NCBI GenBank assembly: GCA_934572465.1
Contig: CAKTLG010000006.1
Location: 1-64,000 of the forward strand
DNA from: an uncultured Oscillospiraceae bacterium
GTDB lineage: Bacteria; Bacillota; Clostridia; Oscillospirales; Oscillospiraceae
Length of the DNA: 64,000 bases
Direction: 5' to 3'
Positions within the stretch are counted from its first letter, which is position 1, and each line of letters starts with the position of its first letter. The notes under the pieces were generated by a model. It searched no databases and was not told the origin of the DNA. It worked only from the letters and a program-made list of their open reading frames with translations. A program made the position numbers and the translations under genes. Shown here in pieces: positions 28,514-53,323 of this stretch.

Positions 28514-28795
28514 TCAGTCCTCATGCGCCGGCTTGCGCTCGGCAAACCACATATTCCACTGGAAGGTATAGGCTTTGTAAGCCGTCTCATCCGCGCAGAC
28601 AAGGCGCACGCGGGACGGCCGCTCGTGCTCGTAGCCGTAGTCCATAACAGCGCGCAGCACGCGATAGGCGGCCTTCAGATCGCCGTTCGTGCAGGCGAGC
28701 GTAAGGGTGTCGCCCGCTGTAAGCGGCAGCAGCGCCGCGGCGCGGTCGGCAGGGGGGAGGGCGGCGGTGCCGCCGCATACAATTTCAACGGTCAT
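28514..28795 (-). CDS. Uncharacterised 93-residue protein in the purine island
   Basis: A compact soluble alpha/beta protein: TVEIVCGGTAALPPADRAAAL, TAGDTLTLACTNGDLKAAYRV, then SRVRLVCADETAYKAYTFQW. No signal peptide and no cysteine cluster. The late VRLVCADETAYKAY phrase is reminiscent of macro-domain proteins, but the rest is too short to be one. The ATG at 28795 has GAGG nearby and lies eight bases past the stop of the 8-oxoguanine-deaminase-like gene, so the two are probably translated from one message. No function is assigned. Confidence 0.65.
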   Translation of the reverse strand: MTVEIVCGGTAALPPADRAAALLPLTAGDTLTLACTNGDLKAAYRVLRAVMDYGYEHERPSRVRLVCADETAYKAYTFQWNMWFAERKPAHED

Positions 28796-28803
28796 AGTGC
28801 GCC

Positions 28804-30162
28804 TCAGCGGCCAAGATACGCGCGGCACTTGGCCTCGGCCTCGCGCGCGAGTTTTTCCTCGTCGACCGTGACAAGGCGGCCATGCTCGACCGTCACGCGG
28901 CCGTGGACGATGGTGTAGTCGACTGTGCCGCGCACGCCGACGGTGCCGAGCACGCTTTTGGGGTCGAAGAACGAGCCGACCAGCTCGAGGCGGCGCGAGT
29001 CGATCATAAAGAGGTCGCAGCACTTGCCGAGCGCGAGCGAGCCGATATCCTCGCTGCGGCCAAGGAGCTGCGCGCTGCCGCGTGTGGCCATTTTGAGCAC
29101 ATCATAGCCGCTGGGAGCCTTCTTGCTGGCGCTGAGCCGATGCAGCAGAAAAGCGACGCGCAGCTCCTCCATGAGTGACGAACCGTCGTTCGAGGCGGAG
29201 CCATCGACGGCAAGGCCCACCGGCACGCCGAGCGAGAGCATCTCGGGGATGTGTGCAACGCCGGAGGAAAGCTTCATGTTCGAGATCGGGCAGTGGGCAA
29301 CGCCGGTGCCGGTTCTGGCGAGCACGCGCAGCTCCTCGTCGTTGAAGTGGATGCCGTGGGCAAACCAGACGTCGCTGCCCGTCCAGCCAAGGCGCTCCAT
29401 ATACTCGAGCGGACGCACGCCTTCGCGCGCGAGCATGAAGTTTTCCTCATCCTTCGTCTCGCACAGGTGCGTGTGCAGGCGCACGCCGTACTGACGCGCC
29501 AGCGCCGCACTCTCGCGCAGAAGCTCCGCGGACACGGAAAACGGCGAGCAGGGCGCGAGCGCAATGCGGTGCATCGCACCGAACGACCTGTCGTGGTACG
29601 TTTCGATCAGGCGCGCGGAGTCGGCCATGATCTCATCGACCGTCTGTACCACGCTGTCGGGCGGAAGCCCGCCGTCCTTGACGGAAAGATCCATGCTGCC
29701 GCGCGAGGCATACATGCGCGCGCCGATTTCGTCGGCGGCCGCGAACTGCGCGCCGATCAGGTCGCCTGCGCCTGCGGGGAAGACATAGTGATGGTCGAAG
29801 CAGGTCGTGCAGCCGTGCTTCATCAGCTCGCCAAGCCCCGTGAGCGTGGAGAGACGGATGACGTCTTCATCGAGGTTCTTCCAGATCTCATAGAGCGTCT
29901 TGAGCCAGTCAAACAGCTCCATGTTCTGCACCTCCGGCAGATTGCGCGAGAAGATCTGGTAGAGGTGGTGGTGCGTGTTCACAAGCCCCGGATAGCAGAG
30001 CATATGACGCGCGTCGATGGTCCTGTCTGCCGTGTACGGCAGGGTGGGGCCGATGGCGCGGATGAAGCCGTCTTCGGCGTAGAGGTCGACGTTTTCGTAC
30101 ACGGTGTCATTCTCGTCGCACGAGACGAGCGTCCGAATATTCTGGATGAGCAGAGTGGACAT
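28804..30162 (-). CDS. 8-oxoguanine deaminase-like amidohydrolase (COG0402)
   Basis: A 452-residue metal-dependent deaminase. Metal and substrate signatures: VNTHHHLYQIFSRNLP (the HxH strand with an extra His, as in 8-oxoguanine deaminases), HTHLCETKDEENF, HGIHFNDEEL, AHCPISNMKL and the metal Asp in VDGSASND. Expected chemistry is hydrolytic deamination of an oxidised or oxo-purine such as 8-oxoguanine to urate. Triazine and guanine deaminases are nearest alternatives. The start at 30162 has AAAGGAG before it. Urate as product would feed directly into the neighbouring ygfK/ssnA-type genes. It is followed by the small ORF and preceded by a repeat-filled gap. Confidence 0.78.
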   Translation of the reverse strand: MSTLLIQNIRTLVSCDENDTVYENVDLYAEDGFIRAIGPTLPYTADRTIDARHMLCYPGLVNTHHHLYQIFSRNLPEVQNMELFDWLKTLYEIWKNLDEDVIRLSTLTGLGELMKHGCTTCFDHHYVFPAGAGDLIGAQFAAADEIGARMYASRGSMDLSVKDGGLPPDSVVQTVDEIMADSARLIETYHDRSFGAMHRIALAPCSPFSVSAELLRESAALARQYGVRLHTHLCETKDEENFMLAREGVRPLEYMERLGWTGSDVWFAHGIHFNDEELRVLARTGTGVAHCPISNMKLSSGVAHIPEMLSLGVPVGLAVDGSASNDGSSLMEELRVAFLLHRLSASKKAPSGYDVLKMATRGSAQLLGRSEDIGSLALGKCCDLFMIDSRRLELVGSFFDPKSVLGTVGVRGTVDYTIVHGRVTVEHGRLVTVDEEKLAREAEAKCRAYLGR

Positions 30163-30199
30163 AATAGTCTCCTTTCCGGTAAAGGGCACGCTGCCGTTT

Positions 30200-30640: not shown

Positions 30641-30645
30641 CCTAC

Positions 30646-30680
30646 TCAAAAACGGCAACCAATTCGGTTGCCGTTTTTGA
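30646..30680 (-). terminator. Terminator of the ABC transporter operon (bidirectional)
   Basis: TCAAAAACGGCAACC pairs with GGTTGCCGTTTTTGA over 15 bp across AATTC. It lies five bases past the last permease stop. Confidence 0.93.
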
Positions 30681-30685
30681 AAGCG

Positions 30686-31678
30686 TTAGCGCTCTTCGCG
30701 GAAGTAGTTCAGGCCCAGCGAGGCGGGCGGCTGCTTCTCCTTGTTGTTGCGCGTGCTGGAGATGATCAGCACGATGACCGTGACCACATAGGGCAGGATC
30801 TTGTAGAGCTGCGTGGGGATGAACGCGACCACCAGACGCAGATACAGGATCATCAGCGCGCCGAAGAGCACGCTGCCCCAGATGGCGCTGAGCGGACGCC
30901 ACAGGCAGAAGATGACCAGCGCGACGGCCAGCCAGCCTACACCGGACAGACCCTCGTGGTTCCAAACGCCGCCCGCGATGGTCATGATGTAGACCATGCC
31001 GCCGATGGCGCTCACGCCGCCGCCGATGATGGTGGCGAGGTACTTATACTTCGTAACATTGATGCCGGCCGCGTCGGCAGTGGCGGGGCTTTCGCCCACG
31101 CTGCGCAGATACAGGCCGCTGCGGGTCTTGTTCAGGTAATAGAACAGGCCCACGGCGCAGAGCACCGAAAGATAGAAGAAAAAGCTGTTGCCGAAGAGGA
31201 TGCCGCCGATATAGGGAATGTTCTGCAGCCCCTTGGGGAACGGAGAGTTCTGGAAGTAGCCCTTGAGCATATTGCTCACGGAGATGTAGCCGTTCTCGCT
31301 CACACGCATATACTCGCCAATGAACTGGCCGACGCCGGTGCCGAAGATCGAGAGCGCAAGGCCCGTGACGTTCTGGTTGGCGCGCAGCGAGATCGTCAGG
31401 AAGCTGAAGATCAGCGAGGCGAGCGCGCCGGCAAGGAACGCGCAGAGGATGCCGATGAGGATAGCAAGGTAGCCGTTGGGCGCGGAGGCGAACTTCTCGT
31501 AGTAGTACACGCCGCCGAGGCCCATCGCGCCGCCCATGAACATGATACCCTCAACGCCGAGGTTGAGGTTGCCGGATTTCTCCGTCAGGATCTCGCCGAG
31601 CGTACCGAACAGCAGCGGTGTGCCGTAGGTGATGGCGGCGATGATGAGGGTGATGAAAAGCGTTGCAAAGTTAGCCAT
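30686..31678 (-). CDS. Nucleoside-type ABC transporter permease (NupQ/YufQ-like)
   Basis: A 330-residue integral membrane protein with about ten hydrophobic helices. It begins FITLIIAAITYGTPLLFGTLGE and has EKSGNLNLGVEGIMFMGG, the conserved block of the second permease in BMP-dependent nucleoside importers, plus the coupling-loop region VGESPATADAAGINV. It pairs with the permease upstream to form the channel. Its ATG overlaps the previous stop by one base. Terminator follows immediately. Confidence 0.9.
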   Translation of the reverse strand: MANFATLFITLIIAAITYGTPLLFGTLGEILTEKSGNLNLGVEGIMFMGGAMGLGGVYYYEKFASAPNGYLAILIGILCAFLAGALASLIFSFLTISLRANQNVTGLALSIFGTGVGQFIGEYMRVSENGYISVSNMLKGYFQNSPFPKGLQNIPYIGGILFGNSFFFYLSVLCAVGLFYYLNKTRSGLYLRSVGESPATADAAGINVTKYKYLATIIGGGVSAIGGMVYIMTIAGGVWNHEGLSGVGWLAVALVIFCLWRPLSAIWGSVLFGALMILYLRLVVAFIPTQLYKILPYVVTVIVLIISSTRNNKEKQPPASLGLNYFREER

Positions 31679-32781
31679 TACTTAGCCGCCTCCTTTTCAG
31701 TTTTCGACGAGCGGAAGATCAGCCGGTAGTTGATGAAGAATTCGCAGCCGAGCATGCAGAACAGCAGGATGCCGGTGATGATATCGGAGATGGAGGCCGG
31801 CACGGCAAGGCGCGTCTGGAGCGTTTCGGCGCCCTTGGAGATGACCGCGAGCATCATGGAGATGACGATCATCGCAAACGCGTTGAGCTGGCTGAGCCAG
31901 GCGACCGTGATGGACGTGAAGCCCACGCCCGCAGCCACGCCGTCATAGAGCGTAGTGTTCGCGCCGGAGGCGACGATGAAGCCGACCAGACCGGAGATCG
32001 CGCCGGAGAGGAACATCGTGCGCATCATCACGTGACCGACGTTCATGCCCGCATAGCGCGCGGTGTTGATGGAGTCGCCGATGACGGCGATCTCATAGCC
32101 GTGCTTGGTGTGGTTCATGTAAACGTGCATGAACACGACGAGGATCAGCACGATGATCCAGCCGCAATGGACGCCAAGCACCTTGGGGAGCGTCGCGGCA
32201 GCGTCGAACTGCGGGATGATCTGCGAGCCGGGACGGCCTTCCCACGGGCCGCCCTGGAGCCAGCGCACCACGCCGATGATGATGTAGTTCATCATCAGGG
32301 TAAAGAGCGTCTCGTTGGTGTTCCATCTGGCCTTGAAAAACGCGGGGATCAGCGCCCAGATGCCGCCGGCGACCGCGCCGGACAGGCCCATGATGATGAG
32401 CAGCAGCGCCGACGGGACCTTGCCGACCCAGTAGAGCGCAAAGTAGCTCGCGGCGATGGCGCCCGCGGTGATCTGGCCCTCGGCGCCGATGTTCCAGAAG
32501 CGCATCTTGAAGCACGGGGCGATGGCCAGCGCGCAGCCCAGCAGCGGGACGGCAAGCTTGACGGTCTGGCGGATGGCGGTCTTTTTACCGAGCGCGCCGG
32601 TGATGATGGTGGCGTAGCCCGTGATGGGGGACGCGCCGTCGGGCAGGGCGATCATCATGACGAGACCGCCGAGGATCAGCGCCACGAGGATGGAGGCAAG
32701 GCGGATGCACCAGACCTTCCACGGCTCCATCATGTCGCGCTTGGCGAGACGGATCAGGGGTACCTTGTTCTCGTTATGCAT
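31678..32781 (-). CDS. Nucleoside-type ABC transporter permease (NupP/YufP-like)
   Basis: A 367-residue membrane permease with an N-terminal cytoplasmic segment, then roughly ten helices (VALILGGLVMMIALPDG, IGAEGQITAGAIAA). FWNIGAEGQ is the counterpart of the NLGVEG block in the partner subunit, and YEIAVIGDSINTARYAGM is the coupling loop. Its start overlaps the ATPase stop by eight bases, with GGAGGAGG upstream. Family members import guanosine and other purine nucleosides, which suits the island. Confidence 0.9.
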   Translation of the reverse strand: MHNENKVPLIRLAKRDMMEPWKVWCIRLASILVALILGGLVMMIALPDGASPITGYATIITGALGKKTAIRQTVKLAVPLLGCALAIAPCFKMRFWNIGAEGQITAGAIAASYFALYWVGKVPSALLLIIMGLSGAVAGGIWALIPAFFKARWNTNETLFTLMMNYIIIGVVRWLQGGPWEGRPGSQIIPQFDAAATLPKVLGVHCGWIIVLILVVFMHVYMNHTKHGYEIAVIGDSINTARYAGMNVGHVMMRTMFLSGAISGLVGFIVASGANTTLYDGVAAGVGFTSITVAWLSQLNAFAMIVISMMLAVISKGAETLQTRLAVPASISDIITGILLFCMLGCEFFINYRLIFRSSKTEKEAAK

Positions 32782-34321
32782 GGACTGCCTCCTCCTTTCC
32801 GCCGCCGATGCGGGTCATCATCAGGCCGATCTCCTCCTTGGTGGTGGTGCGGGCATCGACGATGCCGCTGACCTTGCCGCCGCAGAGCACGAGGATGCGG
32901 TCGCACAGCTCGAGCAGCACGTCCAGATCCTCGCCGACGAAGATGACGGCAACGCCCTTCATCTTCTGCCCGGTCATGAGGTTGTAGATGGTGTAAGAGG
33001 TGTTGATGTCAAGGCCGCGCACGGCGTAGGCGGACATCAGCACGTTCGGAGAGGACGCGATCTCGCGTCCGACGAGCACCTTCTGCACGTTGCCGCCGGA
33101 CATCCGGCGCACGGGGAACTCGGTGCTGGGCGTTACGACCTCGAGCTCCTTCCAGATGCTCATGGCCAGCTCGTTGGGGTCCTTGCGGTTGACGAACACA
33201 CCCTTGCCCTTTTTCCACGAGCGGAGCATCATGTTGCCCGTCATGCCCATCGAGCCGACAAGGCCCATGCCAAGGCGGTCCTCCGGCACGAACGCGAGCG
33301 CGACGCCGGATTTTTTGATCTGCATCGGCGTTTTGCCGACCAGCTCGGATTCGGGCGCGCCCTCGGGCGTGTAGCGGATGCTGCCGCCCTCGGCCACGGG
33401 ATAAAGGCCCGCGATGGATTCGAGCAGCTCGCGCTGGCCGCTGCCCGCGATGCCCGCGACGCCGAGGATCTCGCCGCCCATGGCGGTGAACGAGACGTGG
33501 TCGAGGCGGGCGACGCCTTCGGCATCGTAGCACGTGACGTCCTTGAGCGTCAGGCGCGGGACGGGGTTTTCATAGCGCGGGCGGTCGATGTTCAGCGTGA
33601 CCGCGTGGCCGACCATCATGTCGGTCAGCGCCTGAGGGTTGGTCTCGGCGGTGTTGACGGTGCCGATGTACTGTCCCTTGCGCAGCACCGCGACCTTGTC
33701 CGAAAGGGACATGACCTCGTGCAGCTTGTGGGTGATGATGACGATGGCCTTGCCGTCGGCGCGCATGTTGCGCAGCACGTTGAAGAGCTTTTCCGTTTCC
33801 TGCGGGGTCAGAACGGCGGTCGGCTCGTCGAGGATCAGGATGTCCGCGCCGCGGTAGAGCACCTTGACGATCTCCACCGTCTGCTTCTGCGAGACGGACA
33901 TGTCGTAGATCTTCTTCGTGGGGTCGATATCGAAGCCGTAGCGGTCGCAGATCTCCTTGACCTTTGCGTTGGCGGCCTTGATGTCCAGCTTGCCCGACTC
34001 GTCGCGGCCGAGAACAATGTTCTCCGCCGCGGTGAACACGTCAACGAGCTTGTAGTGCTGGTGGATCATGCCGATGTGGTTGTCGAAGGCGTCCTTCGGG
34101 GAGCGGATGGAGGTGAGCACGCCGTTGACATAGATCTCGCCCTCATCGGGGAAGTAAATGCCGGCGAGCATGTTCATCAGCGTGGTCTTACCGCTGCCGT
34201 TTTCTCCCAGCAGGGAGAGGATCTCGCCGCGGTTGATGGTCAGGTCGATGCTGTCGTTGGCAACGACCTTGCCAAAGCGCTTGGTAATGTGTCTCAGTTC
34301 GATTGCACATGCGTTGTCCAA
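32774..34321 (-). CDS. Nucleoside-type ABC transporter ATPase, two nucleotide-binding domains
   Basis: A 515-residue protein with tandem ABC domains (NupO/YufO-like). The first is complete: SLLGENGSGKTTLMNML (Walker A), MSVSQKQTVEIVKVL (signature-like), ADILILDEPTAVLTPQE (Walker B) and THKLHEV. The second is divergent: GVAGIAGSGQRELLE, RRMSGGNVQKVLVGREI and a Walker B reading LMSAYAVRGLDINT in which the usual catalytic Glu is missing, as in many second domains of this family. The TTG at 34321 is preferred because AAAGGATG lies nine bases before it; the GTG at 34357 has no clear site. A promoter lies upstream. Confidence 0.9.
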   Translation of the reverse strand: MDNACAIELRHITKRFGKVVANDSIDLTINRGEILSLLGENGSGKTTLMNMLAGIYFPDEGEIYVNGVLTSIRSPKDAFDNHIGMIHQHYKLVDVFTAAENIVLGRDESGKLDIKAANAKVKEICDRYGFDIDPTKKIYDMSVSQKQTVEIVKVLYRGADILILDEPTAVLTPQETEKLFNVLRNMRADGKAIVIITHKLHEVMSLSDKVAVLRKGQYIGTVNTAETNPQALTDMMVGHAVTLNIDRPRYENPVPRLTLKDVTCYDAEGVARLDHVSFTAMGGEILGVAGIAGSGQRELLESIAGLYPVAEGGSIRYTPEGAPESELVGKTPMQIKKSGVALAFVPEDRLGMGLVGSMGMTGNMMLRSWKKGKGVFVNRKDPNELAMSIWKELEVVTPSTEFPVRRMSGGNVQKVLVGREIASSPNVLMSAYAVRGLDINTSYTIYNLMTGQKMKGVAVIFVGEDLDVLLELCDRILVLCGGKVSGIVDARTTTKEEIGLMMTRIGGGKEEAVHA

Positions 34322-34409
34322 GGTTCTGTCATCCTTTCTGTCTAAGGCTGCAGCCACCTTACCGGAGGGAACGAGGGAAGCTCCGATAAATGCTGATTAT
34401 TCAATACCT

Positions 34410-34590: not shown

Positions 34591-35838
34591 TTAGAACGCG
34601 GAGTTCAGCCACTCGATGCCGTCGATCTGGATGGCAAAGTAAGGAGCGGACTGGAAGTAGGACTCGTGGAACGCGCCGTCGAACACGGCCTCCTCGGAGT
34701 CGGGGGTGAAGTCGCCGTCGGTATCGAGGGCGAAAGCGGAGGTCAGGGTCTCGCCGCCAACGGTGAAGGTGGAGGTGTCGAAGACCTTGATGGAGCCGTC
34801 CTTGAGACCGGCCTCGACCTCGGCGAGCTTTTCAGCGGTGCCGGGGGCGGCGATGGCTTCGTTCAGATCGGTCAGCACGACGCTGCCGTCAGCATAGCCC
34901 TTGCAGAAGTCCTGATCGAAGGCCTGGCCGTTGGCAACAGCCTCGATGGCATAGACGAAGTACGGCGCCCAGTCGATGCGGCAGCCGATGATGGAGGCCT
35001 CGGGAGCAACGCCGGTCATGTCGTTGTTGTAGCCGGTGTGGAACGCGCCCTTGGACTGTGCCATGGTGGCGGGGGTGGTGTTATCGGAGTGCTGGGAGAT
35101 GATCTTGCAGCCGAGGTCGCACAGAGCGGACGCGGCGTTGGACTCCTCAGTGGCGTCGGACCAGGAGCCGACGAACTGGACCTTCATGGTCGCGCTCGGG
35201 CAGACGGAGCGGGCGCCCAGGAAGTAAGAGGTCATGCCGGAGATAACTTCGGCGAAGGAGTACGCGCCGACGTAGCCGATGACGGCCTCTTCGGGCTTGA
35301 TGGTGCCGTCGTCGATGAGCTGCTGGAGCTTCATACCGGCGGCGACGCCGGCGAGGTAACGGCCTTCATAGATGTTGGCGAAGGCGTTGTGGGTGTTGTC
35401 AAGACCATCGTTCCAGGAGCCCTGGTTGGTGCAGCCGACGAACTGGATCTCGGGATAGTCGGGCGCGACCTTGAGCATGAACGGCTCAAAGCCATAGGAG
35501 TTGTTGAAGATCAGCTCGCAGCCTTCTTCAGCCAGCTCGATGTTCGCATCCTCGCAGGTGGAATCCTCGCCGATGTTGTACTTGACGACCCACTCGACAT
35601 TGATGCCCTTGGCCGCAAGCTCGTCGGTGGCGGCTTCCTTGCCGCGGATAAAGTTGTAGGTGTAGCCCTGGTCGTTTTCGTCACCGATGCAGATGAGGCC
35701 GACCTTGACGGTCTTGGTCTCGTCGGTGGTCTGCTGCTGGTCGTCGGTGTTGGGGGTCTCGTCCTGAGCCTTATCGCCGCAGGCAACAAGGGAGAGGACC
35801 ATGATGACAGACAGCAGGATCGCAAGAAGCTTCTTCAT
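34591..35838 (-). CDS. BMP-family nucleoside-binding lipoprotein
   Basis: A 415-residue exported lipoprotein: signal peptide MKKLLAILLSVIMVLSLVAC with the lipobox cysteine at position 20, a short Asp/Gln/Thr linker, then the BMP/PnrA-like fold (VGLICIGDENDQGYTYNFIRG, CELIFNNSYGFEPFM, VIGYVGAYSFAEVISGM, IISQHSDNTTPATMAQ). BMP proteins deliver purine nucleosides (or similar ligands) to the permease pair encoded downstream. AAGGAGG lies ahead of the ATG at 35838. The longer upstream frame is not protein-like. Confidence 0.92.
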   Translation of the reverse strand: MKKLLAILLSVIMVLSLVACGDKAQDETPNTDDQQQTTDETKTVKVGLICIGDENDQGYTYNFIRGKEAATDELAAKGINVEWVVKYNIGEDSTCEDANIELAEEGCELIFNNSYGFEPFMLKVAPDYPEIQFVGCTNQGSWNDGLDNTHNAFANIYEGRYLAGVAAGMKLQQLIDDGTIKPEEAVIGYVGAYSFAEVISGMTSYFLGARSVCPSATMKVQFVGSWSDATEESNAASALCDLGCKIISQHSDNTTPATMAQSKGAFHTGYNNDMTGVAPEASIIGCRIDWAPYFVYAIEAVANGQAFDQDFCKGYADGSVVLTDLNEAIAAPGTAEKLAEVEAGLKDGSIKVFDTSTFTVGGETLTSAFALDTDGDFTPDSEEAVFDGAFHESYFQSAPYFAIQIDGIEWLNSAF

Positions 35839-36098: not shown

Positions 36099-37034
36099 TT
36101 ACATCTGGACGCGGGTGCCGGTCTTGCCCTCGATGCCCTCGGCTGCCTTCTCAAGCAGCGTGATGAGCGCGGTGCGGCCGCTCTTGCTCTCGGCGAAGGA
36201 CATCGCAGCCTGAACCTTCGGCAGCATGGAGCCGGGGGCGAACTGCTTTTCTTCGATATACTTGCGCGCCTCATCGGGGGTCAGCGTGTCGAGACCCTTC
36301 TGATCGGGCTTGCCGAAGTTGATGGCGACCTTCTCAACGGCGGTCAGGATGACGAGCATATCGGCGTCGAGGAGCTCCGCGAGCTTGGCGGAGGCGAAGT
36401 CCTTGTCGATGACGGCGGGCGTGCCGTAGAGCTTGCCGTCCTTGCGCACGACGGGGATGCCGCCGCCGCCGACCGTGATGACGACCGTGCCGTTGTCAAC
36501 GAGCGCCTTGACGGTGTTCTTCTCAATGACGTCGATCGGCTTGGGGGAGGGGACGACCTGACGGTAGCCGCGGCCGGCGTCCTCGACCATGGTGTAGCCC
36601 TTTTCGGCGGCGATTCGCTCGGCGGTCTCCTTGTCGTAGAACGCGCCGACGGGCTTGGTGGGATGCTGGAAAGCGGGGTCGGCCTCGTCGACGAGCACCT
36701 GCGTCACGACGGTGGCGACGTCCTTGTTCATGCCGCGGGAGGCGAGCTCGTTGCCGATGGCGTTCTGCAGGTGATAGCCGATATAGCCCTGGCTCATCGC
36801 GCCGCACTCGGGGAAGGGCATGTCGGACTTGATGGCCTTGGCCTCGGCGGCGGTGGCCATGCCGAGGTTGATCATGCCGACCTGCGGGCCGTTGCCGTGG
36901 GCGATGATGACCTCGTTGCCCTGCGCGATCAGGTCGACGATGGGCTTGGCGGTCTCGGTGACGAGGGCGAGCTGCTCATAGGGGGTGTTGCCCAGCGCGT
37001 TGCCGCCGAGGGCGATGACGATTCTCTTGCTCAT
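36099..37034 (-). CDS. arcC: Carbamate kinase
   Basis: A 311-residue carbamate kinase: IVIALGGNALGNTPYEQ, IIAHGNGPQVGMINLG, VDEADPAFQHPTKPVG, the ATP-site VITVGGGGIPVV and ILTAVEKVAINFGKPDQ. It converts carbamoyl phosphate and ADP to ATP, CO2 and ammonia. There is no arginine deiminase here; its partner is the YgeW carbamoyltransferase encoded just upstream. The pair mirrors the carbamate kinase gene of ygeW/ygfK clusters elsewhere and would make the ATP-yielding end of ring degradation. Confidence 0.96.
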   Translation of the reverse strand: MSKRIVIALGGNALGNTPYEQLALVTETAKPIVDLIAQGNEVIIAHGNGPQVGMINLGMATAAEAKAIKSDMPFPECGAMSQGYIGYHLQNAIGNELASRGMNKDVATVVTQVLVDEADPAFQHPTKPVGAFYDKETAERIAAEKGYTMVEDAGRGYRQVVPSPKPIDVIEKNTVKALVDNGTVVITVGGGGIPVVRKDGKLYGTPAVIDKDFASAKLAELLDADMLVILTAVEKVAINFGKPDQKGLDTLTPDEARKYIEEKQFAPGSMLPKVQAAMSFAESKSGRTALITLLEKAAEGIEGKTGTRVQM

Positions 37035-40046: not shown

Positions 40047-40676
40047 ATGCTGAAAGCGCTGGAGCAGGTCGCAAAGGGCATTGCCGCGACCTTTGGCAGC
40101 AGCTGCGAGGTCGTCGTTCACGATGTCGGGGCCAAGCATCCGGAGCACTCCATCGTCGCCATCGAGAACGGGCACGTTACCGGCAGAAAGGTGGGCGACG
40201 GCGCGTCGCACGTTGTTCTGGAGCAGGTGCGTCAGGCCGACGCGCAGCCGAACGATCATCTGAGCTATCTGATGAAAACGCCGGACGGCAAGATCCTCAA
40301 GTCCTCGACCATGTACATCCGCGGGCGCAGCGGCAAGGTCGCGGCCATCCTCGGCATCAACTACGACATTTCCTCGCTTTTGATGATCGAGGGCGCGCTG
40401 CACGAGCTGACCGACACGCAGGACCGCACGCAGAGCGAGCCGGAGCGGATCGTCAACGTCAACGACCTGCTCGATGAGCTGATCGCGCAGTCCGTCGCGC
40501 TGGTGGGCAAGCCCGCCGCCCTGATGAACAAGGAGGACAAGATGCGCGCCATTGGCTTTCTCAGCCAGAACGGGGCGTTTCTCGTCACAAAATCCGGCGA
40601 TAAGATCGCCAAATACTTCGGGATATCCAAATACACATTATATTCTTATATCGACAAACAACAGGAGGAGAAGTAA
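40047..40676 (+). CDS. YheO/DauR-type regulator (PAS-like sensor plus HTH)
   Basis: A 209-residue regulator with the YheO-like PAS domain (SSCEVVVHDVGAKHPEHSIV, GILGINYDISS-like AAILGINYDISSLLM) and a C-terminal helix-turn-helix (MRAIGFLSQNGAFLVTKSGD, then YFGISKYTLYSYID). Relatives control amino acid or diaminopropionate-type catabolism. It is divergent from ygeY and two bases ahead of the PLP enzyme gene, so it is the natural regulator of both arms. The GGAGGAG site at 40021-40027 is 19 bases before the ATG, too far for normal use; a non-standard start near 40032-40035 is possible. Confidence 0.87.
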   Translation: MLKALEQVAKGIAATFGSSCEVVVHDVGAKHPEHSIVAIENGHVTGRKVGDGASHVVLEQVRQADAQPNDHLSYLMKTPDGKILKSSTMYIRGRSGKVAAILGINYDISSLLMIEGALHELTDTQDRTQSEPERIVNVNDLLDELIAQSVALVGKPAALMNKEDKMRAIGFLSQNGAFLVTKSGDKIAKYFGISKYTLYSYIDKQQEEK

Positions 40677-45082: not shown

Positions 45083-46465
45083 TCACAGAGCGTATTTGCT
45101 GCGCGCGAGATACTCGCCGCGCTTTCCGCCTACGACCGCGCCGCCGTCGACCTGCAGCGCGCCGCGCAGATAGACCTTATCGACGCCGCCGCTCGTGCGG
45201 AAGCCCTCAAACGGCGTGTAGCCCGCCCTGGAGAGCATGTCCGCGCCGTGGAGCACGCGGCTCGCGCCCGGATCGTAAACGACAATGTCGGCGTCGCTGC
45301 CCGCGGCGATCACGCCCTTGCGGGGGAAGAGACCGTAGAGCTTTGCGGGATTCTCGCTCAGCGCGCGGCAGACACCGGCAAGCGAGAGCTTCTTTTCCTG
45401 CTCGGCGATGGTATAGACGACCTCGCCGCGCGTCTCAACGCCCGGCAGGCCGCCGGGGATCTTCGTGAAATCGTCGCGCCCCATGTCCTTCTGCGCAAGC
45501 GTGAACGAGCAGTGGTCAGTCGAAATGGTCTGCACCTCGCCGCGGCGCAGCGCCTTCCACAGTGCCTCGCTGTCCTCCTTCGTGCGGATGGGCGGCGCGC
45601 AGACATAGCGCGCGGCGGCGGAATAGTCGGGGTCGTAGTAGACGCTGTCGTCCAGCGCCAGATACTGCGGGCAGGTCTCGACATACACGGTCTGCCCGCG
45701 GCGGCGCGCCGCCGTGATCTCGTCGAGCGAGGACTTGTTCGTCGTGTGCACGATGATGACGGGCGCGTCCGCCGCCTGCGCGATGCGCAGCAGCCGTCCG
45801 ACAGCCTCGGCCTCCAGATAGTCGGGCCGCGCCATCGGGTGCGAGGCCACATCCGCGCCGAGCCCGCTCGCTTTCAGCTCCTCGATGCGCGCGTCGATCA
45901 CACCGGCGTTTTCGCAGTGCACGCCCGCGATGCCGCCGCGGACCTTCAGCGCCTTGAGCGCGCGGTAGACCGCGCCGTCGCCGATCATCATGGCGGGATA
46001 GGTGAGATACATCTTGAACGACGTGATGCCGGCGGCGAACATATCGTCCAGCTCGGACTCGATGCCCGCGTTCCAGTCGTCGATCGTCATATGGAAGCCG
46101 TAGTCGCAATAGCATTTACCGTCGGCCTTTTCGTGCCAGAGGGCAAGGCCGTGGGCGAGCGTCTCGCCCTTGTTGGGGCAGGCGAAGTCGATCACCGTCG
46201 TCGTGCCGCCGCGGATGGCGCTGCGGCTGCCGCTTTCAAAGTCGTCGGCGGTCGTGGTGTTGCACACGTCGAGATCAAAGTGCGTGTGCGCATCGATAAA
46301 GCCGGGGAAGAGCAGACGGCCCGTCACGTCGACGATCTCGCTCTGCGCGGCAAGCTCCGGCGGGATGTGGCCGACCGCGGCGATCTTTTCCCCGTCGATG
46401 AGCACGTCGGCGCGGCGGCGGCCGCGTCCGCTGACAACAAAGCCGCCCCTGAGCAGCGTTTTCAT
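45083..46465 (-). CDS. hydA: Dihydropyrimidinase/D-hydantoinase family hydrolase
   Basis: A 460-residue cyclic amidohydrolase. The binuclear metal site is complete: GFIDAHTHFDLDV, the carboxylated Lys in GITSFKMYLTYP, HCENAG, VIIVHTTNKSS and the Asp of TISTDHCSF. It opens five- or six-membered cyclic ureides such as hydantoins and dihydropyrimidines. In ygfK/ssnA clusters the HydA/HyuA enzyme is thought to open a ring of a reduced urate derivative. The ATG at 46465 has AAGGAG eight bases upstream and is preferred to 46474 or 46471. It is divergent from the 5'-nucleotidase. Confidence 0.92.
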   Translation of the reverse strand: MKTLLRGGFVVSGRGRRRADVLIDGEKIAAVGHIPPELAAQSEIVDVTGRLLFPGFIDAHTHFDLDVCNTTTADDFESGSRSAIRGGTTTVIDFACPNKGETLAHGLALWHEKADGKCYCDYGFHMTIDDWNAGIESELDDMFAAGITSFKMYLTYPAMMIGDGAVYRALKALKVRGGIAGVHCENAGVIDARIEELKASGLGADVASHPMARPDYLEAEAVGRLLRIAQAADAPVIIVHTTNKSSLDEITAARRRGQTVYVETCPQYLALDDSVYYDPDYSAAARYVCAPPIRTKEDSEALWKALRRGEVQTISTDHCSFTLAQKDMGRDDFTKIPGGLPGVETRGEVVYTIAEQEKKLSLAGVCRALSENPAKLYGLFPRKGVIAAGSDADIVVYDPGASRVLHGADMLSRAGYTPFEGFRTSGGVDKVYLRGALQVDGGAVVGGKRGEYLARSKYAL

Positions 46466-46612
46466 ATCCATCACTCCTTATCAGAAAAAACATGGTTCCA
46501 AATTAAAGCAAGCATATCATATTCTGCGTGGAAATTCCATACGTCAGAGACAAAAAAAGGAAATTGTCCAAAAGCGACAAGAAATGCAGGGAAAATTCAG
46601 AAAAATGCTGAC

Positions 46613-46776: not shown

Positions 46777-48882
46777 ATGCGCAAGTTCTTATCCGTCCTG
46801 CTCGCACTGGCCATGGCTCTTTCTCTGACCGTGACCAGCTTTGCGACGGAGGAAACGGCGGGCGAGGCCGCGGCCACGACTGCCGAAACCGCGACGATGG
46901 CGGGCAAGACCGTCATCCTGCACTCGAACGACGTCCATGGCGCGATCGAGGGTTACGCCTACATCGCACAGCTCAAGGCCGACTACGAGGCCAAGGGCGC
47001 CGAGGTCATCCTTGTCGATGCCGGCGACTACAGCCAGGGCACGACCTACGTCAGCACCACCAAGGGCGCCGACGCGGTCACGATGATGAACGCTGCGGGC
47101 TATGATGTCGTCTCTCTCGGCAACCACGAGTTCGACTATGGCTACGCCCAGCTCAAGGACAATATGTCCAAGGCCAAGTTCAAGGTCCTCTGCGCCGATG
47201 TTTTCAACGCTGACGGCACGCCCATCTTCGACGCCAACTACACCTATACCACCAAGTCCGGCGTGAAGATCGGCTTCTTCGGCATGGAGACCCCCGAGAC
47301 CCAGACCAAGACCAACCCCGCGCTCATCAAGGGCCTTACCTTTGCGACGAAGGACGCCTTCACCAAGGCGGCCGCCGACCAGGTCGAGGCGCTCAAGGAC
47401 AGCGATATCGTTGTCTGCATCTCCCATCTGGGCGTTGACGCCGAGTCTGAGCCCTATCGCTCCACCGATCTGTATGCCGCCGTCAAGGGCATCGACTTTG
47501 TCATCGACGCGCACTCCCATACCGTGATGACCAAGGGCGAGAACGGCGAGCCCATCCAGTCCACCGGTACCGCGTTCGCCAACATCGGTGTGATCGTCAT
47601 TGACGACGCCACCAAGAAGATCGAGAGCAACTCCCTCTTTGAGATCAAGGAAGACACCGCCAAGGACGAGACCGTGGCTGCCGCCGCAAAGGTCATCGTT
47701 GACCGTGTCAATGCCGAGTACGGCGCCGTCTTCGCCAAGAGCGAGGTCGAGCTCAACGGTGCGAAGGCTCCCAACGGCAACCGCGACGGCGAGACCAACA
47801 ATGGCGATCTCATCACTGACGCAATGGTCTGGAAGGTCCTGCAGAACAAGGACGGCCTGACCGTGGATGAGGATCATGTTGTCGCCATCACCAACGGCGG
47901 CGGCATCCGCGCGGCCATCAAGGTCGGCGACGTCACCAAGAAGGACATCAACACCGTTCTGCCGTTCGGCAATACGGTCGCGGTCGTCTATGTCACCGGC
48001 GCCGAGCTGCTTGAGGCGCTCGAGGCTTCCACCTACAGCCTGCCCGTCGGCGGCTTCCCGCAGGTCAGCGGCATCAACTTCACGCTCTCCACGGGCGCGG
48101 CCTATGACGCCAACGCTGAGACCTATCCCGCTTCCACCTACTACGGCCCCAAGACCATCAACCGCGTGAGCATCAACAGCATCAACGGCAAGGAGTTCAA
48201 GGCTGAGGACACTTACGCTGTCGTCACCAACAACTTCTGCGCTGCCGGCGGCGATACCTATTATGCCTTCGTGGCCGCTTCTGCGCAGTTCGACACCGGC
48301 GTTCCTCTGGATGAGGCCGTGATGGAATACGTCACTACCGAGCTCAAGGGCGTGATCGGCGAGAAGTACGCCGCCCCGCAGGGCCGCATCGTCATGAATC
48401 CGTTTGCCGACGTCAAGGCTTCCTCCTGGTTCGGCAAGTATGTCATCGACCTCTACAATGACGGCATCATCGCCGGCACCAGCGCCACCACCTATGCTCC
48501 CAGCGACACCCTGACCTGGGGCGCGGCGCTCAAGCTCCTGCTCGTCAGCAAGGGCGAGCTGAAGGCTGAGGACGCCACCGGCGCCGACTGGCTGAAGAAC
48601 ACCATGGCCAAGGCTGCTGAGCTGGGCCTCGTCGCCGAGGATGCGGACGGCAAGGCTGCCATCTCCCGTCTCGCGTTCTGCCAGACCGCTGCCAAGCTCT
48701 ACAAGCTGGAAGAGTCCAAGACCGAGAGCCCCTTCACCGACTGCACTGACGGTTACGTGATGGCGCTCGTCGACGCGAAGGTCATCGACGGTATGAGCGA
48801 GAACACCTTTGCGCCCGACAGCTCTCTGACCCGCGCGCAGATCGCCAAGATCCTCTATCAGCTCAACCTGATCGAGAAGTAA
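46777..48882 (+). CDS. Exported 5'-nucleotidase/2',3'-cyclic phosphodiesterase with SLH domains
   Basis: A 701-residue secreted enzyme. A signal peptide (KFLSVLLALAMALSLTVTSFA) precedes the metallophosphatase domain: VILHSNDVHGAIEG, LVDAGDYSQGTTY, VVSLGNHEFDYGYAQL, ISHLGVD and DAHSHTVM supply metal ligands. The substrate domain has AITNGGGIRAAIK and VVTNNFCAAGGDTYYAF. From about residue 550 two S-layer homology repeats (SSWFGKYVIDLYNDGIIAGT; TDGYVMALVDAKVIDGMSE) anchor it to the wall. It would free nucleosides outside the cell for the BMP transporter in the same island. GAGGAGG precedes the ATG at 46777. Confidence 0.94.
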   Translation: MRKFLSVLLALAMALSLTVTSFATEETAGEAAATTAETATMAGKTVILHSNDVHGAIEGYAYIAQLKADYEAKGAEVILVDAGDYSQGTTYVSTTKGADAVTMMNAAGYDVVSLGNHEFDYGYAQLKDNMSKAKFKVLCADVFNADGTPIFDANYTYTTKSGVKIGFFGMETPETQTKTNPALIKGLTFATKDAFTKAAADQVEALKDSDIVVCISHLGVDAESEPYRSTDLYAAVKGIDFVIDAHSHTVMTKGENGEPIQSTGTAFANIGVIVIDDATKKIESNSLFEIKEDTAKDETVAAAAKVIVDRVNAEYGAVFAKSEVELNGAKAPNGNRDGETNNGDLITDAMVWKVLQNKDGLTVDEDHVVAITNGGGIRAAIKVGDVTKKDINTVLPFGNTVAVVYVTGAELLEALEASTYSLPVGGFPQVSGINFTLSTGAAYDANAETYPASTYYGPKTINRVSINSINGKEFKAEDTYAVVTNNFCAAGGDTYYAFVAASAQFDTGVPLDEAVMEYVTTELKGVIGEKYAAPQGRIVMNPFADVKASSWFGKYVIDLYNDGIIAGTSATTYAPSDTLTWGAALKLLLVSKGELKAEDATGADWLKNTMAKAAELGLVAEDADGKAAISRLAFCQTAAKLYKLEESKTESPFTDCTDGYVMALVDAKVIDGMSENTFAPDSSLTRAQIAKILYQLNLIEK

Positions 48883-48996: not shown

Positions 48997-51945
48997 TTAC
49001 AGATACAGGTAGCTGTACTTGTCGCGCAGGGTAAGGATCAGCGCCTCGAGTTCGACGGGCAGATCGTTGTCGCAGGAGCCGAGATCGTATTCCTTCACAT
49101 CGGCAAGACGCAGACGGATTTTGTCGCCGTCCAGGAACAGCACGCCTGCGTTTTCGCTCTCGTCCATGTCCTCGCGGGTCTGGAAGAGGGTGAACTTGTC
49201 GTGGCAGGGCTCGCTGTCATAGGGGCAGAACTGCGTGCAGTTGCCGCACTCGTTGCACATCTTGTCGACGTGGACGATCTGGTGCGAGCCGTCGGCCATC
49301 TTGATGACGACGTTCGCGCGGTTCGGGCAGGAATCGACGCAGTTTTCGCATACGGTGGAGCACTGCAGGCAGCGCTCGCCGTCGCAATGGCACTTGCAGG
49401 ACATGGCGAGCACGCCCTTCTTGGCCTGTGCGTCAAACTCGGTCACGTCGGCCTCGGCGGGGATGTCGTAGACGTGCGGATGGCCGACGACCACTTCGGC
49501 AAAGCGCGCGGCGTCGGCGATGCCCTCGACCACGGTGGCGGGGCCGCGGTGCGCGTCGCCCGCGCAGTACACGCCGGGAACGTTCGTCTCGAACGCGGGG
49601 CCCTTGCGGCCCATCTCAATGCCGTTGGCGGCCATGAGCTCGGCGTCGACCTGCTCGCCGACGGCGGAGATGACCATGTCGCAGGGAATGGTGAACTGCT
49701 CGCCGGACTTGACGGGGCTGCGGCGGCCGGTCTCGTCCGGCTCGCCGAGGATCATCCTATCGCACAGCAGCTGGCCGCGGCTCTGCCTGACGGGCGCGGC
49801 AAGCTCGACGAACTCGACGCCGTCCTCGATGGCGAGCTGGAGCTCGTGCTCGTCGGCGGGCATGAACTTCTTCGTGCGGCGGTAGAGGATGGTCGCGTGC
49901 GCGCCCATGCGCTTGGCGACGCGCGCGGCGTCCATGGCGGTGTTGCCCGCGCCGACGACGACGATGTTGCCGTGAAGAATGGGCTTGACCTGCTTTTTCA
50001 TCTTCTTCATCCACTCGATGACGCCCTGCACGTTGCCCTCGATGTCGAGCTTGCCGGCCTTCCATGCGCCGGTGGCCATCAGAATATGGGTGTAGCCCAT
50101 CTTCTTGAGCTCGTCGACGGACGGAGCGGGCTTGCCGAGCCTGACCTCGACGCCGTAGCGTTCCATGAGCGCAATGTCCTTGTCGATGGCCTCGTCGCTG
50201 ATGCGGAAGGCGGGGATGACGTGGCGCGGCACGCCGCCGAGCTTGCGCTCGCGCTCAAAGATCGTGGTGGGAACGCCCTCGCGGCCGAGGAAGTAGGCTG
50301 CGGCGATGCCGGTCGGGCCGCCGCCGACGATGGCGACCTTCTTGTCCTCGACCTGCTCGGGCAGGCGGATGGACGCCATGAGCGCACCGTAACCCTTTTC
50401 AGCGGCAAGGAGCTTCGTGTCGCGGATGTGGACGGACTCGTCGTAGAAGTTGCGCGAGCACTTGCCCTGGCAGCGGTGCGCGCAGATGGTGCCGGTGATG
50501 AACGGCAGCGCGTTCTTCTCGGTGATGAGCTTCAGCGCGGGGCCGTAAAGGCCCTTGCGGCACAGCTCGAGGTATTCGGGGATATCCTGCTCGATGGGGC
50601 AGCCGCCCTTGCAGGGCGCGGTGAAGCAGTCGAGCCAGGGCACCTGCTCGCTGCTCTTGCGGGAGGGCAGGGGCTTGATGGGCTTTAAGTGGTGGAAGTC
50701 GTGCAGCGCGGCGGCGGCAAGGTCGGAGATCGCGGCGGGATCGTTGCCCGCAAACGCGCGGTACGGCATGGCCTCGACCTTTTCGACCATCTGATGCAGG
50801 CGGTTGTAGCCGCCGGGTTTCAGGATCGTGGTGGCGACGGTGATGGGCCAGATGCCCGCGGCGAACAGCTTGTCGCAGTTGAAGTATTCCGCGCCGCCCG
50901 CAAACGAGATGCGCATCTTGCCGTTGAACGTGCGGGAGATGCGGCTGCACATCTCGATCGTCAGCGGGAAGAGGCTGCGGCCGGACATGTACATCTCCTC
51001 GTTGGGGAGCTCGCCGCGCGTCGTGTCGACGGGGAAGGTGTTGGAGAGCTTGAGACCGAACTCAAGGCCCTGCTTGTCCGCGAGCTTCTGCAGCCGCTCG
51101 AACATCGGCACGGCATCCTCCCACTGGAGGTCCTCGTTGAAGTGGTGCTCGTCGAAGACGATGTAGTCATAGCCCATGGAATCGAGGATGCTGCGGGCGG
51201 TCTTGTAGCCAAGGATGGTGGGGTTGCACTTGACGAAGGTGTGCAGGTGCTTGTCCTTCAGAAGATAGCTTGCGATGCGCTCGATCTCCTGCGGCGGGCA
51301 GCCGTGGAGCGTGGAGACGGTGACGGAGCGGGAGACGGCGGGGGAGATGGAGGCGATGAAGTCCTTCTCCTCGGGGAAAAGCTCGGTGAGGACCTTTTTG
51401 CACTCCTTGAACTGCGCGGTCTTGCTCGCGTCCATCATGTTGTTGATGTAGGTGTTGACCTTGCGGCCCTTGATGCCGTCGAGATCGTAGCCGACGGACA
51501 TATTGAACACGAACCCGTCGGGATCGCCGAAGCCGTAGACCTTGCTCATCACCTTGAGCGCGCACCAGGCCTTGATGTACTCGTCCTGCGCCTGCTGGAC
51601 GGTCAGCTCGGTCGACCACTCCTGATTGTAGCCCTCGTCGGCGGCGAGGATGCAGGGGCGGGGAACGCAGGCGGCAAGCTCCGCGCCGTCCATCTTCTGG
51701 ACGGTCTTGACCTCAAAGAAGCGCGCGCCGGCAGCGTAGGCCGCGATGATGTTTTGCGCAAGCTGGCTGTTGGGGCCGGCGGCGGGGCCGAACGGCGTTT
51801 CGATGCGCTCGCCGAAGATCGGCAGGCTCTTGCCGCCCGCGTGATAGTGTTTATGAACGCCGAACACATCGCCGCTCTGGGCGTATTCGGTCGTGACCCA
51901 GTTCATCAAAGAGTCGAACGGGATCGGATACATTTTTTCAGACAT
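48997..51945 (-). CDS. ygfK: YgfK-type multidomain iron-sulfur flavoprotein oxidoreductase
   Basis: A 982-residue YgfK protein. Roughly residues 1-440 are a dihydroorotate-dehydrogenase-like barrel (PFGPAAGPNSQLAQNIIAAY, STLHGCPPQEIE). Next is a GltD-like part: DCFTAPCKGGCPIEQDIPEY and GTICAHRCQGKCSR, the FAD fold VAIVGGGPTGIAAAYFLG, the NADPH fold NIVVVGAGNTAMDAARVAKR and GVYCAGDAHRGPATVVEG. The C-terminus has Cys clusters CDGERCLQCSTVCENCVDSC and CNECGNCTQFCPYD for Fe-S centres. Named after a putative selenate reductase, it is now linked to reductive urate breakdown. It follows ssnA by 34 bases. Confidence 0.94.
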   Translation of the reverse strand: MSEKMYPIPFDSLMNWVTTEYAQSGDVFGVHKHYHAGGKSLPIFGERIETPFGPAAGPNSQLAQNIIAAYAAGARFFEVKTVQKMDGAELAACVPRPCILAADEGYNQEWSTELTVQQAQDEYIKAWCALKVMSKVYGFGDPDGFVFNMSVGYDLDGIKGRKVNTYINNMMDASKTAQFKECKKVLTELFPEEKDFIASISPAVSRSVTVSTLHGCPPQEIERIASYLLKDKHLHTFVKCNPTILGYKTARSILDSMGYDYIVFDEHHFNEDLQWEDAVPMFERLQKLADKQGLEFGLKLSNTFPVDTTRGELPNEEMYMSGRSLFPLTIEMCSRISRTFNGKMRISFAGGAEYFNCDKLFAAGIWPITVATTILKPGGYNRLHQMVEKVEAMPYRAFAGNDPAAISDLAAAALHDFHHLKPIKPLPSRKSSEQVPWLDCFTAPCKGGCPIEQDIPEYLELCRKGLYGPALKLITEKNALPFITGTICAHRCQGKCSRNFYDESVHIRDTKLLAAEKGYGALMASIRLPEQVEDKKVAIVGGGPTGIAAAYFLGREGVPTTIFERERKLGGVPRHVIPAFRISDEAIDKDIALMERYGVEVRLGKPAPSVDELKKMGYTHILMATGAWKAGKLDIEGNVQGVIEWMKKMKKQVKPILHGNIVVVGAGNTAMDAARVAKRMGAHATILYRRTKKFMPADEHELQLAIEDGVEFVELAAPVRQSRGQLLCDRMILGEPDETGRRSPVKSGEQFTIPCDMVISAVGEQVDAELMAANGIEMGRKGPAFETNVPGVYCAGDAHRGPATVVEGIADAARFAEVVVGHPHVYDIPAEADVTEFDAQAKKGVLAMSCKCHCDGERCLQCSTVCENCVDSCPNRANVVIKMADGSHQIVHVDKMCNECGNCTQFCPYDSEPCHDKFTLFQTREDMDESENAGVLFLDGDKIRLRLADVKEYDLGSCDNDLPVELEALILTLRDKYSYLYL

Positions 51946-51979
51946 AACTTTCTCTCCCTTTTTACAGTGTCCGATTGAT

Positions 51980-53323
51980 TTAGTATTCGCAGTGGTTGAG
52001 GCTGCCCCAGAGCTTCTTGGCGGCTTCGAGGATGTGGGCGTTTTCGGCCTCCTCGTCGATGCCGACGAGCTCGCGGTCGAGCATGAGCGTCTTGCCGGCG
52101 GCAATGGTGGTCTGGCACTGGCGGCCCGTCATGCCGAAGATCATGTGCCCGTCGATGTTCGCGTCGGAGAACGGGGTGAACGGCTTATAGTCCATGACGA
52201 TGATGTCCGCCGCCGCGCCGGCCTTCAGAACGCCGAGCTGGTCGGGGAAGTACTTCGCGCCGATTTTCGCGTTGTTCTTAAAGAGCATATCCGTGACCTC
52301 GCACCAGCCGACGTTCGGCAGGCAGTTCTGGCTGCGCTGGGAGCAGAGGGCGACCTTGATCGACTCGAGCATATCGTTCGTGTAGGCGTCGGTGCCCATG
52401 CCGAGCAGGATGCCGCGCTTGTAGAGCTGGAGCACGGGGCAGATGCCGATGGCGTTGCCCATGTTGGACTCGGGGTTGTTGACGACCATCGTACCCGTTT
52501 CCTTGATGATCTCCATCTCGGCGGTGTTGACGTGGATGCAGTGGCCGAGGATGGTCCTGGGGCCGAGGATGCCGTGATCCTGCAGGCGCTGCACGGGGCG
52601 GCGGCCGTAGTTCTGGAGGGAGTCGTACACGTCGTTCATGCCCTCGGAGACATGGATGTGGTAGCCCGTGCGGCCGTTGTTGGCCGCGACCATGCGGTCG
52701 AAGGTCTTGTCCGAGATCGTGAACAGCGCGTGGCCGCCGAACATCGCCGCGAGCATGGGATCTTTGCGCTGCTCGCATTCGGTGATGAAGTCGGCGTTTT
52801 CCTGAATGGCCTGAAGGCACTTTTCCTCGCCGTCGCGGTCGGAGACCTCGTAGCACAGGCAGGAGCGAAGGCCCAGACGCTTGCTCTCCTCGGCGATCGT
52901 GTGCAGCGTGCCGGGGATCTCGCCGTAGGAGGCGTGGTGGTCGAAGATCGTGGTCACGCCCTGCTTGATCGAGTCGATGTAGAGCGCGGTGGCGCTGGCC
53001 TTCGTGCCGTCCATCATCAGGTGGCGGTCGATGGCCCACCACGTGCCGTCGAGCACCTCGTAGAAGTTCGTCGGATTGTTGCCGACGATCGACAGGCCGC
53101 GGGCGAGGGCGGAGTAGATGTGCGTGTGCGCGTTGATGAACGCGGGCATGATGACGCCGCCTCTGGCGTCGATGAGCTCGGCGTCGGGATACTTCGCGCG
53201 CAGCGCGGCCTCCTCGCCGACTTCGACGATCTTCGCGCCCTCGTAGGCGACGGCGCCGTGCTCGTAGTAGCCCCGCCCCTCAGCGTCGCGGGTGATGAGC
53301 CGTCCGTTGGTGATTAGCTTCAT
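51980..53323 (-). CDS. ssnA: SsnA-type amidohydrolase
   Basis: A 447-residue COG0402 metal-dependent deaminase/amidohydrolase. Ligands lie in AFINAHTHIYSALARGLS, YHIHVSEGMNDVYD, LGHCIHVNTAEME, and the Asp of MGTDAYTNDM. SsnA always travels with ygfK, and the pair is one of the markers of the selenium/purine cluster; it likely deaminates or hydrolyses a ring intermediate after YgfK. The ATG at 53323 has AAAGGAGG nine bases upstream. A distant paralogue of the 8-oxoguanine-deaminase-like protein at 28.8 kb, giving two such enzymes in one island. Confidence 0.93.
   Translation of the reverse strand: MKLITNGRLITRDAEGRGYYEHGAVAYEGAKIVEVGEEAALRAKYPDAELIDARGGVIMPAFINAHTHIYSALARGLSIVGNNPTNFYEVLDGTWWAIDRHLMMDGTKASATALYIDSIKQGVTTIFDHHASYGEIPGTLHTIAEESKRLGLRSCLCYEVSDRDGEEKCLQAIQENADFITECEQRKDPMLAAMFGGHALFTISDKTFDRMVAANNGRTGYHIHVSEGMNDVYDSLQNYGRRPVQRLQDHGILGPRTILGHCIHVNTAEMEIIKETGTMVVNNPESNMGNAIGICPVLQLYKRGILLGMGTDAYTNDMLESIKVALCSQRSQNCLPNVGWCEVTDMLFKNNAKIGAKYFPDQLGVLKAGAAADIIVMDYKPFTPFSDANIDGHMIFGMTGRQCQTTIAAGKTLMLDRELVGIDEEAENAHILEAAKKLWGSLNHCEY

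Follow-up and report, generated by a model that had tools for sequence, protein, structure and literature searches.

A putative reductive urate breakdown island of an uncultured Oscillospiraceae bacterium with two other PLP enzymes in place of YgeX

We examined a stretch of 64,000 nucleotides (hereafter, the window) from an uncultured Oscillospiraceae bacterium (GenBank assembly GCA_934572465.1, contig CAKTLG010000006.1, positions 1 to 64,000), which carries an island of purine-related genes on both strands between 28.8 and 53.3 kb. Based on gene content, the assignment of this island to anaerobic (reductive) urate breakdown is well supported. Its most unusual point is a complete middle section of the pathway with no YgeX and with two other pyridoxal 5'-phosphate (PLP) enzymes adjoining, here named PALP1 and PALP2. 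We lean, with somewhat better than even confidence, to the reading that the island encodes the known reductive urate pathway with the YgeX step replaced by the unrelated PALP1 and PALP2.

The reductive route was reported by two groups in 2025 (PMC12507026, PMC12990295). According to these reports, XdhD converts urate to yanthine, YgfK and SsnA lead to ureidomethyl-hydantoin, HyuA forms 2,3-diureidopropionate, YgeW and YgeY release 2,3-diaminopropionate, and YgeX, the 2,3-diaminopropionate ammonia-lyase and final enzyme of the pathway, yields pyruvate. We called genes with curated NCBIfam models and their bit-score cut-offs, and with Pfam for the BMP, PAS/HTH and nucleotidase domains. The window encodes the enzymes from YgfK/SsnA through YgeY (SsnA, YgfK, HyuA, YgeW and YgeY) together with carbamate kinase, all of them above cut-off (Table 1). 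A preliminary description of this DNA had named the same six genes, along with a COG0402 deaminase, a PAS/HTH regulator and an exported 5'-nucleotidase; all were recovered, the deaminase with NCBIfam and the last two with Pfam. Its proposal of an anaerobic purine/urate island agrees with the gene content and with the XdhD of a relative (see below), but it had overlooked the absence of YgeX and the presence of PALP1 and PALP2.

A tblastn search of the window with the YgeX of a relative gave a best match of E = 0.017, which fell on PALP1, and no open reading frame (ORF) of the island was listed with the YgeX models. The place beside ygeY-ygeW is taken by the PAS/HTH regulator gene, followed 2 bases on by PALP1 and 69 bases further by PALP2, both of them fold-type-II PLP enzymes. 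For other genomes (G numbers) and their loci or regions (L numbers), we examined the best 80 of at least 591 confirmed ygeW loci and counted neighbours in the 55 whose flank on the relevant side spans 5.3 kb or more. Of these 55 loci, 49 carry PALP1, 43 carry PALP1 and PALP2 together, and none carries YgeX; the six loci without PALP1 were L027, L034 and L058, all three with spirochaete titles, together with L050, L057 and L060. Among eight close genomes searched for YgeX (E <= 1e-3), six had none above the cut-off of 532 bits, their best matches being partial and no higher than 65.6 bits (E = 3.4e-18). In G001-G003, which carry the three loci that match the window best and whose assembly completeness is unstated, no YgeX match was better than E = 4.8e-8.

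In a class-level draw of 391 genomes, PALP1 matches were present in 11 (7 close, with 61-95% identity, and 4 distant, with 33-40%). YgeW was detected in 21 genomes: 13 of those had YgeX, 6 had a close PALP1, none had both and 2 had neither. The hypergeometric chance of this lack of overlap is 5e-4, a value that ignores relatedness and comes from genomes of unstated completeness. We also inspected ten regions around class-level PALP1 matches (G001 excluded), which contained PALP2 in 8 cases (all except L202 and L210), ygeY in 7 and YgeX in none; only one of the ten genomes (G195) had a YgeX at all. In particular, L203 combines in one direction ssnA, 8-oxoguanine deaminase, ygfK, ygeY, PALP1, PALP2, xanthine dehydrogenase (XDH) subunits and ygeW, and L206 holds the same set plus a hydantoinase, likewise compact. 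The PALP1 of L207-L209 has no more than 33-38% identity, but its gene still stands together with PALP2, ygeY, a carbamoyltransferase gene and arcC. The carbamoyltransferase of L208 is nearer to ornithine carbamoyltransferase than to YgeW; that divergent cluster (L208, 8637-14480: XDH, PALP2, PALP1, ygeY, the ornithine carbamoyltransferase-like gene and carbamate kinase) may serve another purine or ureide route.

We aligned 33 PALP1, 27 PALP2 (both including those of the window) and 13 YgeX sequences, chosen from 68, 57 and 17 collected, respectively. The PLP lysine is kept in both PALPs and an STGN loop is present in 33/33 PALP1 and 27/27 PALP2, while YgeX has a TDGNH motif (13/13); therefore, judged by sequence, neither of the two is a YgeX. 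The YgeX model TIGR03528 did not list PALP1 at E <= 1e-3 and, for PALP2, did not rank in the top 25 of 40 families; in whole-genome matches at the PALP2 loci of G001, G002, G004 and G008 it scored 20-22 bits against its cut-off of 532. Profile comparison of YgeX with hhalign gave 93% for PALP2 and 32% for PALP1, which places PALP2 nearer; both relations are distant only, and the underlying alignments are highly uniform. PALP1 is nearest by profile to cysteine synthase and cystathionine beta-synthase, with which it shares the lysine and the STGN loop; unlike these enzymes, it reached no curated family cut-off, and its best matches cover only about residues 130-330 (~200 residues).

PALP2 aligns over most of its length with threonine synthase (ThrC; structures 1uim, 2zsj and 6cgq). 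Four residues kept in the alignments of these three solved ThrC, namely T88, S155, R160 and N188 in 1uim numbering, are replaced by A, A, L and D in 27/27 aligned PALP2, whereas Asn154 is retained in 26/27. We take the four changed positions to be those that bind the substrate phosphate in threonine synthase. An ordinary threonine synthase is thus a disfavoured identity for PALP2, given these changes and the second ThrC above cut-off that was found in 9/9 genomes searched.

Under the preferred reading, in which the PALPs replace YgeX, the BMP importer would take up purine nucleosides or another purine, and deamination of 8-oxoguanine would give urate. XdhD, which in this very strain would be encoded outside the window, would reduce urate to yanthine; YgfK and SsnA would reduce and then open the ring, and the hydantoinase would yield 2,3-diureidopropionate. 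YgeW and YgeY would strip the two ureido groups, with carbamoyl phosphate formed by YgeW and converted to ATP by carbamate kinase. Up to diaminopropionate, this chemistry is that of the 2025 papers. Finally, PALP1 and PALP2, not YgeX, would turn 2,3-diaminopropionate into pyruvate and ammonia. PALP2 is the likelier candidate for the beta-eliminating enzyme, and PALP1 may assist it, or may act on the other stereoisomer or on a neighbouring intermediate.

Several observations weigh against a simple replacement. PALP2 passes two threonine synthase cut-offs (PRK08197, 328 bits against 303; TIGR00260, 220 against 167), and the Asp of the YgeX TDGNH motif is present in neither PALP. Lys77 and Asp120 are named as potential catalytic residues in PMC4000059, and the equation of the motif Asp with Asp120 is our own assignment. 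In a draw of 150 genomes of the family (YgeX counted at E <= 1e-60), YgeW was found in 39, all of them with SsnA. PALP1 was present in 30 of these 39 and YgeX in 20: 16 had PALP1 only, 6 YgeX only, 14 both and 3 neither. The 14 genomes with both compare with 15.4 expected under independence, so that, genome by genome, the family shows no exclusion, and PALP1 also occurred in 6 of the 111 family genomes without a YgeW match. Within 6.5 kb of ygeW (between starts), 15 of the 39 genomes had PALP1 alone, 11 YgeX alone, 1 both and 12 neither. Within the family, PALP1 and YgeX are therefore not mutually exclusive by genome, but nearly so by position. Of the 11 genomes that had only YgeX near ygeW, 7 carried PALP1 at another site; one of these 11, G096, also had, at the end of a second contig (L176), a partial ygeW next to PALP1.

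Where PALP1 lies away from ygeW, it adjoined a hydantoinase and a MocA-type gene in the regions examined. This was the case for PALP1 and PALP2 in YgeX-type genomes such as G082, G086, G030, G125 and G140, with xdhABC also beside the pair in G082, G086 and G140. The PALP-associated hydantoinase was the only one at E <= 1e-60 in G082, G030, G125, G140, G072 and G062. More broadly, of 16 genomes searched, 9 had a hydantoinase no further than about 5 kb from one of the two PALPs; in the other 7 it was not within that distance, or there was only a match below cut-off. Such neighbourhoods link the PALP pair to the purine genes, though not to the YgeX slot. In L163, L169 and L171, where PALP1-PALP2 adjoin hydantoinase, MocA-type and XdhABC genes, we also observed a thiolase gene nearby, and CoA-transferase genes were identified near the pair in L163. 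A further contrary point is G016, with the row arcC, ygeW, ygeY, ygeX, PALP1 and no PALP2 there. Because PALP1 stands directly beside YgeX in that genome without PALP2, this row suggests that PALP2, and not PALP1, corresponds to YgeX. PALP1 regions without PALP2 were also found in G047, G019 and G075 (family) and in G287 and G195 (class); among the 36 family genomes with PALP1, 18 regions were inspected, 13 of which contained PALP2, and in G102 PALP1 is at the contig edge.

The coexistence with YgeX, the contact with it in G016, the missing Asp and the YgeX-type genomes in which the pair accompanies the only or best hydantoinase, and not ygeY-ygeW, would all suit another job for PALP1 and PALP2 within the purine regulon. 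Their substrate could be a ureido intermediate or a single stereoisomer, or they could use diaminopropionate for synthesis, the last step being left to an unrecognised enzyme or diaminopropionate being excreted. We regard this as possible, although unlikely, since YgeX and PALP1 never met in the 21 class-level YgeW genomes and ygeY shares the region with PALP1 in 7 of the 10 class-level cases. It is doubtful, too, that PALP1 and PALP2 act one after the other on an intermediate of defined stereochemistry, with a last reaction, and possibly a product, different from those of E. coli and C. difficile.

Improbable, in our view, is an ordinary YgeX on another contig of the source genome, with the PALP pair as an extra. 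Absence beyond the window was judged from relatives, and two of the eight close genomes, G005 and G007, hold both kinds, with PALP1-PALP2 beside ygeW (L048 and L056) and a YgeX above cut-off elsewhere; likewise, of the 15 genomes in the family draw where PALP1 adjoins ygeW, 4 have a YgeX match elsewhere, 1 of them above cut-off. The lack of a comparable match in G001-G003, genomes of unstated completeness, argues in the other direction. Finally, the hydantoinase, ABC importer and carbamate kinase families are not specific to urate, but action of the island on another hydantoin or a dihydropyrimidine is very improbable, given that SsnA, YgfK, YgeW and YgeY each score above the cut-off of their model, that SsnA accompanies YgeW throughout the family draw and that XdhD is present in G001. 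The island is a real and well-conserved variant of the recently described pathway, with simple replacement of YgeX as its likeliest reading.

We searched for the first step of the pathway as well. The XDH subunits of relatives gave no tblastn match in the window at E <= 1e-5, which bears out the earlier remark that no molybdenum hydroxylase is visible here. XdhD was found in G001 away from the island (TIGR03313, 1204 bits against 1102), which fits the earlier prediction of a first step encoded elsewhere; the same locus contains a selenium-dependent xanthine dehydrogenase (TIGR03311, 1260 bits against 830) and, between the two, a MocA-type gene (135 bits, below the cut-off of 186). A YgfM-like subunit of G001 was also below cut-off (98 bits against 242). 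All 8 relatives searched had molybdenum hydroxylase matches, from 2 to 6 per genome. Selenium and yqeB are treated for C. difficile in PMC11448449; relatives of yqeB/yqeC were absent at E <= 1e-8 from three stretches, ~60 kb, around the XdhD locus of G001.

The E. coli pathway genes are xdhD-ygfM, ygfK, ssnA, hyuA, ygeW, yqeA, ygeY and ygeX (PMC12507026). The window shares with them ygfK, ssnA, the hydantoinase, ygeW, ygeY and carbamate kinase, with XdhD elsewhere in a relative; unlike E. coli, it has PALP1 and PALP2 instead of ygeX, its genes are split over both strands, and an 8-oxoguanine deaminase and a BMP importer lie nearby. The C. difficile variant likewise swaps pathway enzymes, with UacX for YgfK and UacY for YgeW (PMC12507026), whereas the putative swap of the window is at YgeX. 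We found no paper on two PLP enzymes replacing YgeX; two cluster papers from 2023 and a 2025 C. sporogenes paper were outside that search, and we make no claim of absence in print. The point of interest is the different enzyme set in the YgeX position; simple replacement has the coexistence of PALP1 and YgeX in the family as its counterweight. Gut bacterial urate breakdown affects human urate levels, and surveys of it rely on marker genes. One survey scores PF00291 neighbours as YgeX (PMC12507026); because PALP1 homologues also carry PF00291, such a survey cannot separate the two, and a YgeX-specific model would overlook genomes having only PALPs. PMC12990295 lists the order of the final steps and their stereochemistry as open, and a second enzyme set for the pathway end would offer an independent route to testing them.

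Table 1. Features of the urate island and its flank, with window positions, strand and supporting model matches.
Feature	Position	Strand	Evidence
8-oxoguanine deaminase (COG0402), predicted to make urate	28804..30162	-	NCBIfam PRK08203, 573 bits, cut-off 532
ABC importer permease 1	30686..31678	-	best ABC_B6_perm_1, 145 bits, below cut-off 465
ABC importer permease 2	31678..32781	-	best ABC_B6_perm_2, 144 bits, below cut-off 400
ABC importer ATPase	32774..34357	-	best ABC_ATP_B6, 397 bits, below cut-off 670
BMP/PnrA-type binding protein, lipoprotein-like leader	34591..35838	-	Pfam PF02608, 84 bits; start and leader read from sequence
arcC, carbamate kinase	36099..37034	-	TIGR00746, 387 bits, cut-off 358
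ygeW, knotted carbamoyltransferase	37139..38332	-	TIGR03316, 761 bits, cut-off 500
ygeY, M20-type hydrolase	38438..39835	-	PRK13004, 592 bits, cut-off 321
PAS_6/HTH_22 (YheO-type) regulator	40047..40676	+	PF08348, PF13309
PALP1, CysK/CBS-like PLP enzyme, 493 aa	40679..42160	+	under every curated family cut-off; Lys110 and STGN loop in 33/33 aligned
PALP2, threonine-synthase-like PLP enzyme	42230..43474	+	PRK08197, 328 bits, cut-off 303; four ThrC residues changed in 27/27 aligned
hydA/hyuA, D-hydantoinase	45083..46474	-	TIGR02033, 514 bits, cut-off 393
Exported 5'-nucleotidase with SLH repeats	46777..48882	+	PF02872, PF00395
ygfK, yanthine reductase	48997..51945	-	TIGR03315, 1268 bits, cut-off 835; start read from sequence
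ssnA, amidohydrolase	51980..53323	-	PRK07203, 595 bits, cut-off 444
ssnA RNA (Rfam RF03031) leader	53443..53490	-	53.4 bits, gathering 37.3; 119 nt upstream of ssnA start codon
6S RNA, just upstream of ssnA leader, same strand	53603-53802	-	side observation

Strand changes and gaps would divide the island into about seven transcription units on both strands. Consensus scans of 36000-54300 returned 11 promoter-like sites (3.4 in shuffles) and 24 terminator-like sites (13.7 in shuffles), an excess that supports separate units and is no proof of them. The preliminary description had counted at least six transcripts, each with its own promoter or terminator. It had also seen in the dispersal a feature that sets the island apart. 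The genes are indeed split here, but the dispersal is not itself novel, because the same set is compact in L203 and L206.

Each of 8 relatives has a single ssnA RNA match, from scans that scored no more than 150 candidate places per genome. Of 7 further loci, 5 have it directly upstream of ssnA, with PALP-type as well as YgeX-type loci among these 5, and it was not found at L203 and L160. With a single match per genome in the 8 genomes, the RNA did not reveal a wider regulon. The PAS/HTH regulator adjoins PALP1 in the window and ssnA in G086, G082 and G030, and these positions fit one putative regulator for the whole gene set. A sigma-54 regulon (DioR) of some Clostridiales that includes ygeW-ygfK-ssnA-ygeY and dpaL is described in PMC6615313; a scan of the window for sigma-54 promoters that allowed up to 1 mismatch gave no site. 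A search for a shared operator word across the intergenic regions returned only A-rich or G+C-rich chance-like pairs.

On the input side, the importer had been described as complete and of BMP type. The BMP domain was recovered; the permeases and the ATPase each have matches to ABC families, but score under the cut-off of the named family in question. From the BMP domain, we infer purine nucleosides or another purine as its substrate. Urate arises directly by 8-oxoguanine deamination (PMC5270733), and the deaminase shares the same clusters, its model cut-off being reached also in L203 and L206, which suggests that oxidised guanine is fed into the pathway as well. Imperfect repeats, read by eye, lie upstream of the 8-oxoguanine deaminase gene (30190-30685). 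The ORF of the 5'-nucleotidase opens at 46705, and the likelier start at 46777, ahead of a signal-like stretch, was taken. The nucleotide scavenging that the preliminary description added to the island has this gene in its favour, but is less conserved: a nucleotidase match occurred at 4 of the 80 ygeW loci (48 with at least 9.9 kb on that side), with 81-83% identity in L001 and L002 and 32-36% in L004 and L020; a further match, in another genome (L187), had 54%.

The YgeW encoded in the window shares 99% identity with its counterpart in Oscillibacter sp. MSJ-31; at DNA level, those stretches of the island that match the MSJ-31 genome do so at about 81-96% identity. The source is an Oscillibacter-type gut bacterium and, given this DNA identity, probably of a species distinct from MSJ-31 but related to it. 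A search of a plasmid collection with ygfK (near mode) gave no match. Outside the island, a T-box leader (18020-18248, + strand) precedes an ORF of 835 aa.

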